A DNA stretch of 64,000 bases from NCBI RefSeq assembly GCF_000382245.1, contig NZ_KB907864.1, forward strand, positions 132,424-196,423, written 5' to 3'. A model generated the notes under the pieces. That model made no database searches and was not told the origin of the DNA. It worked only from the letters and a program-made list of their open reading frames with translations. Position 1 is the stretch's first letter. Each line of letters begins with the position of its first letter. The position numbers and the translations under genes are program-made. The stretch comes from Kushneria aurantia DSM 21353. GTDB lineage: Bacteria > Pseudomonadota > Gammaproteobacteria > Pseudomonadales > Halomonadaceae. Below, piece by piece: positions 29,329 to 34,282 of the stretch.

Positions 29329-30543
29329 TCAGTGCGCGCCGGCGGCGCGCAGACGGCGCAGGCGGATCAGCAGCGCCATGGCGATCAGTGCCAGCGCCGC
29401 GACGAGTAGTGCAAAGGCGATGCCGGCGCTCTGTAGACCGATCAGGTGGATAGTAATCCCCAGCCCGACCACCGGCAGTGAGATGGCGACATAGATCACC
29501 ACGAAAAACGTCGAGGTCACCTCGCCGCGCTGTCGGGCGGGCGCGGCGCTGACCACCTCGCCCAGCCCCGAGCGCAGCGCTACCCCCTGGCCCAGCCCGG
29601 CGATGACCGCACCGCCAAGCGTCAGCGCGAGCGACGACAGGGCTACCGCCGTGCACAGCAAAAGCGCCCCCACGGCGAGAACCGCACAGCCGACGATCAG
29701 CCGCTGTCGGGTGGCAATCAGCGTCATCGACGCCTGCCCCAGCGCCGAGGAGAGAAACAGTACGAAGATGATCGCCCCGATCAGTGCGAGGTTATGAATA
29801 CCCAGCAGTTGCTGCGCTACCGCTGGCAGCACGGCGGTGAAAAGCCCCAGCACGGCGGTACCGGCAAAACCGGCGATGCCGGCGGGAATAAAAACGCGGC
29901 GTACCTCGGCAGGCAGTGCCAGTCGCTGAACGTGCAGGCGCAGGCGCTGCGGCGGGCGCACCGTTTCCGGTGCGTAGCACACCCCCGCGGCGACCAGCAG
30001 GCAGGCGACAAGGTGCAGGGCGTAAGGGAGATGCAGCGGCCAGCTAACGTACTGCGCCAGCACGCCGGCAAATACAGGCCCCAGGCCGATGCCCAGCATG
30101 TTGGTGGCGGTGGCGGCGAGGGTGGCACCGTTTTTCCATTCGGGCGGTGCCTGCTCGACCACCGCCACCGTGGCGGTACCGGTAAAGATGCCCGCCGAGG
30201 CGCCCGACAGTACTCGGCCGATCAGCAGCGGCGTCAGCTCGGGGCTGGCGATAAAGATCGCGTCACTGAGTATCGCGAAGGTCAGTCCGCCGAGCAGCAC
30301 CCGGCGGCGTCCCAACTGATCGGACCAGCTGCCGAAGGCGATCAGGGCGCCGATCACGCCAAGCGCATAGGCGGCGAAGATCACCGTGATCATGATCTGC
30401 GAATAGCCCATCTGCGTCTGATAGATGGGGTAGAGCGGTGTGGGCAGGGTCGGGCCGATCATGGCGATCAGAAAGGCCGCCACGATCAGCGTAAAGGAGA
30501 AACGCCCCGGCGTACGAAACTCTGATTCGGTGGGTGACAGCAT
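29329..30543 (-). CDS. MFS transporter (drug/metabolite efflux type)
   Basis: 404 aa with 12 predicted membrane helices. The cytoplasmic loop 2-3 motif is WSDQLGRRRVLL (MFS motif A), and FAAYALGVIGALIAFG precedes it. The N-terminal half (PTPLYPIYQTQMGYSQIMIT) places it with DHA1-like exporters. No dedicated regulator is adjacent, and the substrate is unknown. Confidence 0.82.
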   Translation of the reverse strand: MLSPTESEFRTPGRFSFTLIVAAFLIAMIGPTLPTPLYPIYQTQMGYSQIMITVIFAAYALGVIGALIAFGSWSDQLGRRRVLLGGLTFAILSDAIFIASPELTPLLIGRVLSGASAGIFTGTATVAVVEQAPPEWKNGATLAATATNMLGIGLGPVFAGVLAQYVSWPLHLPYALHLVACLLVAAGVCYAPETVRPPQRLRLHVQRLALPAEVRRVFIPAGIAGFAGTAVLGLFTAVLPAVAQQLLGIHNLALIGAIIFVLFLSSALGQASMTLIATRQRLIVGCAVLAVGALLLCTAVALSSLALTLGGAVIAGLGQGVALRSGLGEVVSAAPARQRGEVTSTFFVVIYVAISLPVVGLGITIHLIGLQSAGIAFALLVAALALIAMALLIRLRRLRAAGAH

Positions 30544-30668
30544 GGACGGCTCCTCATGGTGTTACCCGGGTTTGGTAGATTCCGGGCGATGTAGCACCCC
30601 GGGTAGTAATGGCGCGGGGATAGTAGACCCGGCGATACAGGGACGTTGGTCCGTAAAAGGAGGTTTGA

Positions 30669-31850
30669 TCAACCGTCAGGGCTGTGTTTTCGCCTGATAA
30701 AATCAGCGAAAAGCGGAACGGTGAAATCAAGGTAGCCGTGATCGGTGCTGTAAATCATCCCCTTGTAGATGATGCTTGCGCGAGCCGGACCGATTGACTT
30801 CTGCGTACGTTCCATTCTTTTGGCAATATCGGAGACCTGATAAGGTCCGTCGCCAAGAGTCGCCATTGCCTTGACAAAACTGACCTCTGCTTTGGTAAGA
30901 CGGTCCAGGCGCACACGAAAGAAACCGTTGTCCAGAGAGCTGATAGTTTCTGCATGAGACGCATGGATATCACTCTCATCGATTTCGGTTCCCCGCGCGT
31001 TGTTCCAGGCGAAGGAAGCAAGTTCCTGCAGAAAGAAGGGGTAACCCTTCGTCATGTCGAATATTGCTGCCACTGCTTCCCGAGAGATAGAGGCCCCTTC
31101 ATCCCTGATGGGTTTCTCGATCGCTTTTGTCACCGCTTCCTCATCCAGAGGACCCACAGCAGGATAGCTGAATAATCTTTCCGCATAGGACTTCGCCTCC
31201 CCCGCGAGACGTGCTACTTGCGGTAATCCGGCGCCTATGAAAATGATGGGGCGTCCGTCCTGTGACATACGGTGAAGCGCGACAATCAGAGCCGAGAGGT
31301 CCTGCCGAGAGAGATATTGGATTTCATCGATCAGAAGTACCCAGCCCCTGTCCGCAGCTTGTGCCGCTCGGCCAATCTGGTCAAAGATATCAGGCAGATC
31401 GTGCTGCATATCGCCGCTCTCTGCCATGCCCGGTTCGGAGGGTGGTTCGACACCAACGTTCACACCGGCGACTTCGATGTTGAACACCGAGGCGAAATTG
31501 CGCAGCCCCCCAAGGGCGCGTGAAGCATGATGCCTGGCTGCCTCGATGCCTGATAATGCCCGAGAGATCTTGCGCATTTCCGGGTGTAGAAGAGCCGCCA
31601 GGTTGGTTTCTTCGGGCGCTTCGATCCTTGAAACGAGAAACTTCTCACTCTCGGCGATACGGCCAATTTCGCTTAAAAGCACCGTTTTTCCGGTGCCTCG
31701 AAGGCCCAGCAGCATCATTGATCGTGCCGCGCGCCCCCTGATGGCACGCCCGCACGATATTCTGGCAGTCTGCAGAATAGGATCCCGTCCTGCGAGTTCC
31801 GGGGGGCGGCTTCCGGCACCGGGAGCGAAGGGGTTGCTGAACGGGTCCAT
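30669..31850 (-). CDS. Orphan AAA-type ATPase with C-terminal winged helix
   Basis: 393 aa. Walker A is GLRGTGKT at residues 49-56 and Walker B is VLLIDE ending at Glu176. A sensor-like IFIGAG follows. The last 90 residues (LTKAEVSFVKAMATL, then YQVSDIAKRMERT) form a winged-helix DNA-binding domain, an architecture like Orc1/Cdc6 or STAND ATPases. Its DNA looks less GC-rich than its flanks, suggesting transfer. The start at 31850 has GGAA 9-12 bases upstream, and a nested palindrome lies just before that. No partner nuclease or toxin is seen. Function unknown. Confidence 0.75.
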   Translation of the reverse strand: MDPFSNPFAPGAGSRPPELAGRDPILQTARISCGRAIRGRAARSMMLLGLRGTGKTVLLSEIGRIAESEKFLVSRIEAPEETNLAALLHPEMRKISRALSGIEAARHHASRALGGLRNFASVFNIEVAGVNVGVEPPSEPGMAESGDMQHDLPDIFDQIGRAAQAADRGWVLLIDEIQYLSRQDLSALIVALHRMSQDGRPIIFIGAGLPQVARLAGEAKSYAERLFSYPAVGPLDEEAVTKAIEKPIRDEGASISREAVAAIFDMTKGYPFFLQELASFAWNNARGTEIDESDIHASHAETISSLDNGFFRVRLDRLTKAEVSFVKAMATLGDGPYQVSDIAKRMERTQKSIGPARASIIYKGMIYSTDHGYLDFTVPLFADFIRRKHSPDG

Positions 31851-31870
31851 ACAACATTTCCAGGATGAGC

Positions 31871-31919
31871 ACTAGCGATGTATAGCGAAGTCTAGAGAAA
31901 AACGCTAGTTTTCGCTAGT
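31871..31919. promoter_or_regulatory. 49-bp nested inverted repeat upstream of the AAA ATPase
   Basis: The outer arms ACTAGCGA (31871-31878) and TCGCTAGT (31912-31919) and the inner arms TAGCG (31883-31887) and CGCTA (31903-31907) share exactly the same centre at 31895. CGCTAGTTTT is also a perfect 10-bp tandem repeat at 31903-31922. The half-sites are spaced close to one DNA turn and lie 21-69 bp before the ATPase start, so this is probably a cooperative operator. Confidence 0.6.
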
Positions 31920-31959
31920 TTTTCCGGGGCGTATGGAGAGCCGGTATCAGCGAGTTTGC

Positions 31960-33117
31960 TTATGCGAGCCGTGGCCGGGTCGCAAGACTGACACCGATCA
32001 GTACCAGCGAAGCCAGCGGCATCGCTACCAGCACACTGTTCCAGCCCAGCGGCTTGCCCAGCGCGATTTCCCAGATGAGCGTCATCGCGCCGCCTGTAAT
32101 CATCGCCATCAGGGCAGCAACGGGCGTGGCGCGCTGCCACAGCAGATCGGTGCCAAAGGCCATCGGCAGCCCGGCTTCGCGCATGGTGACAAGACTTTCA
32201 AGCCCTGCCAGACGCACGTCGTCGATCTTGGCCAGCGATGCTTCTTTCAGGCCGTACTGCGCGCCTTCTTGCTTGAGCATCTCGTAGGTCACCAGCGTGG
32301 GGCAGGCGATCGCGCCGCTGGACGCTGCCAGTCGGGCGGTATCCGAGGTGATCAGGTTGCAGTGCTCCAGCGACAGGAAACCGGCCTCGACGGCGCGGCG
32401 AATCGCCTCGTCGGTATAGAGGTGACCGCTGACATAGGTTTGGGCGTTGCCGGCCTCCTCGACGATAGCGGCAAGCTCTGCCGTCGAAAAACTCAGAAAA
32501 TCGATCGGGTCGCTGGGTGAGGAGACGCCGCCATTGGCCATCACCTTGATGAACTGCGCGCCGCTTTTGATCTCTTCACGCACCGCAAGTCGCACCGCTT
32601 CGACGCCGTCGCAGATACGTCCCATCGAACCCAATCGGCGGCGCTGGTACTGCGCGTCGCGCTCATCAAAGAAGCCGCGATAGTCGTTGTGACCCCCGGT
32701 CTGGGAGAGGGCCTTGGCGCAGATCACCAGTCGCGGCCCGGCCAGCAGACCTTCGGCGACCGCCTGCTGCAGGCCACGGTCGGCGCCGCCCACGTCACGT
32801 ACGGTAGTGAAGCCACGTGCCAGCATGCCCTGCATAATGTGGGCCGAGCGAGCGGTAACGAGCGAGTCGGGCAGCAGCGCATTGGCGCCCAGGTCGGCGG
32901 TGGTGGCGACCACATGGACGTGGCAATCGATCAGTCCCGGCATCAGCGTGCGACCGCCAAGATCGATGACACGGGCGTTTTCGGCCGCGATGGGTTCGAA
33001 GGCGACCCGGGCAATGCGTTCGCCCTCGATCAGTACCTCGATGCCGTCGACCGGCTGTGAACGCTTGCCATCGACCAGTCTGGCATTACGTAGCAGGAGA
33101 CGTTGATGAGTGCTCAT
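31960..33117 (-). pseudogene. Chimera: amidohydrolase N-terminus fused to sodium:solute symporter C-terminus
   Basis: 385 aa in one frame. Residues 1-326 are an imidazolonepropionase-like amidohydrolase with all metal ligands: His66 and His68 in CHVH, Lys191 in IKVMANGG, His232, His252 and Asp324 in FGTD. The normal last 80-100 residues are absent. From about residue 327 (WQRATPVAA) the sequence becomes two hydrophobic helices (AALMAMITGGAMTLIW; SVLVAMPLASLVLIGVSL) ending TRPRLA, the usual tail of an SSS-family symporter. The simplest reading is an in-frame deletion joining two neighbouring genes, leaving a probably inactive product. It follows a LysR gene by 109 bp. A deliberate membrane-anchored enzyme is less likely. 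Confidence 0.75.
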
Positions 33118-33226: not shown

Positions 33227-34162
33227 TCATGCTCGGTCCGGCGCTTTGGCCAGAAGCCAGCGATGTAGCAGGCGGGTAGCATGATTTCGATGGCGCTCGG
33301 CGGGCGTGATCAGATAGTAACCCTGGCCGTGGCTGGCTGAATGATGCGAGGCGCGTACCAGGCGGCCGGTTGCGATCTGGCTGTCGATGATATGCCGCCA
33401 GCCCAGTGCGATGCCGTCGCCAAGAGCGGCCATCTCGATCAGGGAGGGGTAGTGATTGGACGTCATGGTGTTGTGATGCAGGCGCGGTTCAAGCAGACCG
33501 TTACAGGCAAACCACTGCGGCCAGGAGAGCCAGATACTGCGGGAATCCTCCAGTACCAGCAGGGTCTCGGCGTTCAACTGAGCGGGGCCGAGCAGTTCAC
33601 TGCTATCCAGCCCCAGCCGGCGGCGGCACGCTGCCAGATAGCCCGGCGAGCAGACCGGGTGGACCTCTTCGGGAATCAGCAGCGTGGTATCGAAGCCGTG
33701 GAGTGTGCTGCCGGGCAGATAATAAACCCCCAGGTCGAATTCAAAGGAGCTCAGTGAAGCGAAGTCCTTGCGCACAATCAGACGCAGCTGGATGTCCGGA
33801 TGTTCGCGGCGAAAACGGCTGAGCTGCGGCGTCATCCAGAACTGCGCCACGCCAGGCGTACAGGCTACCGTCAGCTCGTTTTCGCCGACGCTTTTCATGA
33901 CCTCTGCGGTGGCGTGCGTACAGGTTTCCAGCATATCGCGCACCTGATGTGCATAGATTTCACCGGCGCGGGTCAATAACAGCTGACGCTGCTGACGAAT
34001 GAACAAGGTTCGGCCCAGAAACTGCTCCAGGTCGGTGATCTGGCGGCTGACGGCGCTCTGTGACAGATTCAGCTCCGTGGCGGCGCGGGTAAAGCTCATG
34101 TGGCGTACCGCGGCTTCGAAGGCAATCAGGGTGTTGAGCGGCGGCAGAGGGGACATGCGCAT
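33227..34162 (-). CDS. LysR-family transcriptional regulator (GcvA-like)
   Basis: 311 aa from the ATG at 34162, with AGGGAG upstream; an earlier in-frame ATG at 34198 has no site. The N-terminal winged helix shows LNTLIAFEAAVRHMSFTRAATELNLSQSAVSRQI, and the effector domain follows (ENELTVACTPGVAQFWMTPQL). The order of conserved residues is nearest to GcvA/DsdC-type regulators. It lies upstream of and on the same strand as the chimeric amidohydrolase, which may be what is left of its target operon. Confidence 0.9.
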   Translation of the reverse strand: MRMSPLPPLNTLIAFEAAVRHMSFTRAATELNLSQSAVSRQITDLEQFLGRTLFIRQQRQLLLTRAGEIYAHQVRDMLETCTHATAEVMKSVGENELTVACTPGVAQFWMTPQLSRFRREHPDIQLRLIVRKDFASLSSFEFDLGVYYLPGSTLHGFDTTLLIPEEVHPVCSPGYLAACRRRLGLDSSELLGPAQLNAETLLVLEDSRSIWLSWPQWFACNGLLEPRLHHNTMTSNHYPSLIEMAALGDGIALGWRHIIDSQIATGRLVRASHHSASHGQGYYLITPAERHRNHATRLLHRWLLAKAPDRA

Positions 34163-34282
34163 GAAATGAGCTCCCTGATACGGCGGAGGGTACATCATAA
34201 AGGCTGCAAATGAAGGCGGTGACAGAGGCTGCAGGAAAACTTGTTTTTACCTTAACGGGTGTTCACAGTTGCGTTAGCCGGT

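Follow-up and report, generated by a model that had tools for sequence, protein, structure and literature searches.

The closest described relatives of the enzyme at this locus are the prolidases Sgx9260b (3MKV) and Sgx9260c (3FEQ/3N2C), members of the amidohydrolase superfamily (MEROPS M38), which hydrolyse Xaa-Pro dipeptides and also act on N-acyl-prolines (PMC11511702). An intact homologue of our enzyme, taken from another genome of the same genus (G003), resembles these COG1228-type prolidases over its full length, and aligns with PDB entry 3MKV over residues 6-413 of 414 (E 2e-120) and with 3FEQ over residues 22-412 (E 1e-115); it scores 266.5 bits against the NCBIfam Xaa-Pro dipeptidase model NF051886, which is below the cut-off of 500. 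The gene adjacent to it in G003 encodes an intact sodium:solute symporter (SSS) that matches PF00474 above cut-off. TIGR00813, TIGR02121, and TIGR02119 score below their thresholds; among specific models the nearest are those of PutP and PanF, both sub-threshold.

The window analysed here, a 64,000-nucleotide stretch of the genome of the salt-tolerant bacterium Kushneria aurantia DSM 21353, carries a single open reading frame made from parts of both genes. Relative to the Sgx9260b/c prolidases, its product lacks the C-terminal ~88 residues and has two symporter helices in their place; relative to the SSS family, it keeps only the last ~59 residues, without the transport core. We read this ORF, with a probability of roughly 90%, as a scar left when a single deletion removed ~1.5 kb from a small catabolic locus with the order LysR regulator, amidohydrolase of the prolidase type, and SSS importer. 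Fusion remnants arising by deletion between adjacent genes are a known kind, and this one has the same adjacent co-oriented parents, single short-word junction, and chance frame, with nothing essential that differs. Among the papers listed by a literature search there was no directly comparable bacterial fusion remnant and nothing on this locus. The relevant features, all on the minus strand, are as follows.

29329-30543, minus strand: MFS transporter gene (Pfam MFS_1), a downstream flank also present in relatives by blastn synteny
30669-31923, minus strand: AAA ATPase gene (30669-31850) and leader, separating the scar from the MFS gene; missing from the same interval in five relatives, and this genome is the only one of 10 in the genus to have it
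31960-32139, minus strand: C-terminal end of the SSS gene (last two membrane helices) with its stop codon, from 60-75% identity to the adjacent SSS in five relatives and from its hydrophobic stretches
32140-32145, minus strand: deletion junction CTGCTG (Leu-Leu), readable from either parent, from nucleotide comparison with both genes in five relatives
32146-33117, minus strand: retained 5' part of the amidohydrolase (prolidase type), residues 1-324, from an Amidohydro_1 match at 57-325, 77-78% identity to five relatives, and the PDB relatives 3MKV and 3FEQ of the intact G003 homologue
33227-34198, minus strand: LysR-type regulator gene, open over 323 aa (Pfam LysR_substrate and HTH_1), upstream and syntenic with relatives

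Architecture of the fusion and its junction

On the minus strand, positions 31960-33117 form an open frame of 385 aa, in which amidohydrolase sequence extends as far as Leu326 and the final two SSS helices come next. The Pfam Amidohydro_1 model (PF01979) matches residues 57-325 and reaches from profile position 1 to position 252 of 345, such that the C-terminal part of the domain is missing; among eight other PF01979 matches in the genome, seven span the profile from its start to at least position 330, and one covers positions 267-342 only. Residues H66, H68, K191, H232, H252, and D324 (HxH, Lys, His, His, and Asp), which we take to be the metal ligands of the amidohydrolase superfamily, are all present, and are invariant across 33 intact homologues. 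The retained enzyme part is 77-78% identical to the intact genes of five same-genus genomes. The original prediction, of an amidohydrolase fused in frame to the last two SSS helices and carrying every metal ligand up to the final Asp within residues 1-326, is thus confirmed in its architecture.

Because the 60-residue tail by itself matches no Pfam model up to an E value of 1, its identity rests on the full-length SSS genes of the relatives. From residue 312 or 315 to its end, the fusion is 60-67% identical to the C-terminus of the adjacent SSS in five same-genus genomes, and the last 60 residues taken alone are 66-75% identical to the same C-termini. There are two hydrophobic stretches in the tail, at approximately residues 330-353 and 356-381, and only symporter residues from ~397 onward are present, so that the PF00474 transport core is missing.

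Nucleotide comparison places the join at 32140-32145, where the original prediction had located the switch (at about 32140). In the five relatives the enzyme sequence at this point is ...(S/T)DLLG(E/A)MHRHQSEEF and that of the symporter is ...LAALLW(S/P)RATP; the fusion has ...GTDLLWQRATP. The word common to the two parents at the join is CTGCT(G), a match of 5-6 bp in the five relatives, which are 72-78% identical in DNA and stand in for the sequence of the ancestor. The distance from the enzyme point to the symporter point in the same five genomes ranges from 1541 to 1566 bp, with remainders modulo 3 of 0, 1, 0, 2, and 1, and the kept reading frame is therefore best read as a one-in-three accident.

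The locus in relatives

Five of the 10 same-genus genomes, a set that includes the window's own, have intact parent genes at the syntenic locus; these carriers are G003, G004, G006, G007, and G009. In these, an intact enzyme gene (414-419 aa) is followed by a co-oriented intact SSS gene (462-471 aa) after a gap of 74-102 bp, with the upper gap value seen at locus L045, where the SSS gene counted from its ATG encodes 467 aa. The pair is flanked by the LysR gene upstream and the MFS gene downstream, as in the window. The enzyme match in the five carriers reaches fusion residue 327-328, and the SSS tail is a separate match running from residue 312/315 to 381-383. The original prediction had proposed an in-frame deletion between two adjacent co-oriented genes, enzyme and then importer, and had pointed to the syntenic locus in relatives as the place to check it; the gene order of the five carriers supports the proposal. 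The other four same-genus genomes (G001, G002, G005, and G008) have no enzyme match at an E value of 0.001. An rpoB tree groups the window's genome with one carrier (G006) and one noncarrier (G008), such that presence and absence of the enzyme are mixed within the genus.

Across 275 genomes of the family (own genome included), with at most seven candidates scored per genome, 111 have a match at E 1e-10, and a match to the whole fusion (residues 1-385 in one frame) is seen in the window's own genome and in no other. In all 21 genomes in the collection with an enzyme at 76% identity or more, the SSS tail, judged by coordinates, is matched separately, downstream of the enzyme and in the same orientation; beyond the same-genus carriers, this adds 16 family genomes with the enzyme-SSS order as two separate matches. 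Nine genomes with a more distant enzyme (45-46% identity; G011, G019, G023, G046, G050, G053, G061, G073, and G111) have the SSS tail just upstream on the same strand, which argues that the pairing of enzyme and importer predates the genus, albeit with a different order. In G050, the open frame around the upstream SSS match (G050:C5:115102-115308) is only 241 aa long, where the others mostly have 467 or more, and the symporter gene may be broken there too. A wider scan of genome contigs confirmed at least 575 loci; among the best 80, which were kept, the enzyme C-terminus (aligned to at least position 405 of 414) is present in all 80, and an SSS gene lies beside the enzyme at E 1e-20 in 15.

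Other fusions were suspected from frames of 1047-1080 aa near the homologues in G057, G066, and G086, and the one in G066 (L071) was ruled out; by eye, its enzyme frame is open upstream across an apparent TRAP-transporter gene in another frame. Loci L090 and L114, which align up to fusion residue 374, were also set aside; both are full-length enzymes whose own C-terminus aligns weakly to the tail, and an SSS gene is absent from both at E 1e-20.

The AAA ATPase gene between the scar and the MFS gene is probably a horizontally acquired single gene. At E 1e-15 it is detected in 7 of the 275 family genomes (counting its own), whereas the nine remaining genomes of the genus lack it; genus g20 has the closest copies, in G185 (85% identical) and G172 (82% identical). 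The similarity to that in G185 spans 31923 to 30668, and the insert starts ~37 bp beyond the stop codon of the fusion. The ATPase has weak similarity to an orc1/cdc6-type ATPase and to the DS41 anti-phage model, both far below cut-off. The flanks of the insert have no common word longer than seven bases in the stretches compared, and no insertion-sequence-like end was noticed at the deletion junction; a transposon as the cause of the deletion is therefore conjectural. With both a scar and an AAA gene present, the locus has been remodelled at least twice, in either order.

Three further features of the intergenic regions were seen. The AAA leader (31853-31923, minus strand) contains repeated CTAGCG-like words (ACTAGCGAAAACTAGCG ... 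ATCGCTAGTG) that are partly kept in the two g20 copies and are possibly an operator. The stretch at 30543-30640 (minus strand), before the MFS gene, has several spaced CCCGGG-like words, which are perhaps regulator-binding repeats. At L043, L044, L045, and L047, and not at L046, we noted by eye a short lipoprotein-like ORF between the SSS and MFS genes, with a leader ending in LAAC and followed by a terminator-like hairpin; it occupies the place of the window's AAA gene.

Probable consequences and age of the deletion

The enzyme C-terminus lost from the fusion, ~88 residues, includes 24 columns that are invariant in the 33 homologues. In the AlphaFold model of the intact G003 homologue (mean pLDDT 91.3, pTM 0.93), the lost region forms helices at 327-332, 335-341, 346-352, 355-360, and 389-392, and strands at 378-381, 399-404, and 407-411. 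The fusion, modelled with the same 33 homologues and four symporter tails, has a mean pLDDT of 62.6 and a pTM of 0.57, with the segment at residues 58-76, which holds the HxH pair, below 50; because the alignment set the C-termini of the homologues against the unrelated tail, which may have lowered confidence, and because model confidence is not a measure of stability, we take the low pLDDT as support and not as proof. The loss of invariant columns and the low-confidence model are signs of lost function, yet the frame is open and omega is below 1. The fusion remnant is probably inactive, although all six presumed metal ligands are kept and there is no stop in the frame.

A branch model over 318 codons, in which the omega values are rough because the branches are long and the topology was fixed by hand, gave an omega of 0.096 on the fusion branch versus 0.042 elsewhere (2 x delta lnL 6.65), and a control with G006 as foreground gave 0.072 versus 0.044 (2 x delta lnL 1.83). 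Omega is also raised in the neighbouring MFS gene (386 codons, four sequences; 0.14 on the branch of the window's genome versus 0.056, 2 x delta lnL 8.58), and the rise on the fusion branch is therefore not specific; the LysR gene shows no rise (0.11 versus 0.093, 2 x delta lnL 0.26). If the whole rise in the enzyme were neutral drift after the deletion, it would by arithmetic make ~6% of the branch neutral. Otherwise invariant columns are changed at six residues in the fusion versus 0-5 in 19 other in-group sequences, and relative-rate counts (means of 25-28 fusion-only versus 20-24 other-only differences) indicate little acceleration. A FastTree phylogeny of the enzyme placed the fusion on a long branch (0.24 versus 0.14 for G006) with doubtful topology and was set aside; its branch lengths, if taken, would suggest faster change in the fusion than in other same-genus sequences. 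Purifying selection on the frame (omega ~0.10) suggests that the scar is probably recent: either it is young or the 5' part is still of use. The original prediction had called the scar fresh, and a branch omega so far below 1 favours this, short of proof.

A search of the assembly (3.75 Mb, 61 contigs, 99.98% complete) did not recover the deleted DNA: the lost symporter part matches only paralogues at 25-26% identity and the lost enzyme part has a best match of E 0.04; translocation of the lost parts within the genome was rejected on these grounds. The exact junction sequence is absent from viral contigs. Matches were found in 68 plasmid records, none over 80% of the query, and the five listed stop within ~13 bases of the junction and thus cover the enzyme part only, so that spread by a virus or plasmid was set aside.

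We observe the parent genes in relatives, their order, and the junction; the rest of the assembly yielded no copy of the lost parts. The deletion would have begun at codon ~326 in the enzyme and ended at codon ~397 in the importer, with the ends presumably joined at the shared word of 5-6 bp by short-homology (illegitimate) recombination and the frame kept by chance. The product would be missing the end of the barrel and the strands that close the small beta domain, and hence would not work; the importer would have been lost outright. The event appears to be recent relative to the divergence of the species.

Alternative readings and the probable lost function

The same features could be explained by a working membrane-tethered enzyme, in which the two helices hold the barrel at the membrane's inner face. 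The junction falls in a loop that is presumably cytosolic in PutP-like symporters, and the open frame, the kept presumed metal ligands, an omega well below 1, and the two hydrophobic stretches of the tail all fit such a protein. However, the fusion has lost the last ~88 enzyme residues with their 24 invariant columns, its model has low confidence whereas that of the intact homologue is good, and it is found in one genome of 275 only; we consider this reading very unlikely. We would give slender odds to a newborn membrane-anchored amidohydrolase whose truncated barrel folds, perhaps in an oligomer, while held by the two borrowed symporter helices; if true, this would be a chimeric protein seen just as it arises, in a single species.

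An assembly artefact, with both genes in reality intact and wrongly joined by the assembler or by a chimeric read, is conceivable for a draft in 61 contigs, but the parents in relatives share only 5-6 bp at the junction, which is much shorter than an assembly word. Moreover, the join is internal to a 233,697-base contig and the lost parts are nowhere else in the nearly complete assembly, which leaves such an error a slim chance. It is most improbable of all that the fusion represents a genuine fused family inherited by other species. Many homologues with the 385-residue architecture, which the original prediction had named as the mark of such a family, were sought, and no further case was found in the 275 family genomes or among the best 80 of at least 575 loci; the idea is rejected within those collections.

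The deletion scar is thus an ordinary, well-supported case of gene loss, and not a new protein family. Judged from sequence similarity, the function lost was probably the salvage of Xaa-Pro dipeptides or N-acyl-prolines, which would have comprised both their uptake and their hydrolysis; the original role of the locus was likely the LysR-controlled uptake and cleavage of a proline-containing or acyl-amino-acid compound. The scar opens no long-standing question, and shows cleanly how an in-frame chimera arises when DNA is deleted between adjacent genes of an operon; automated annotation could well record this chimera as an intact amidohydrolase. The enzyme is without a match in 4 of the 10 same-genus genomes too, and for this species the scar predicts the loss of one peptide or acyl-proline salvage route.
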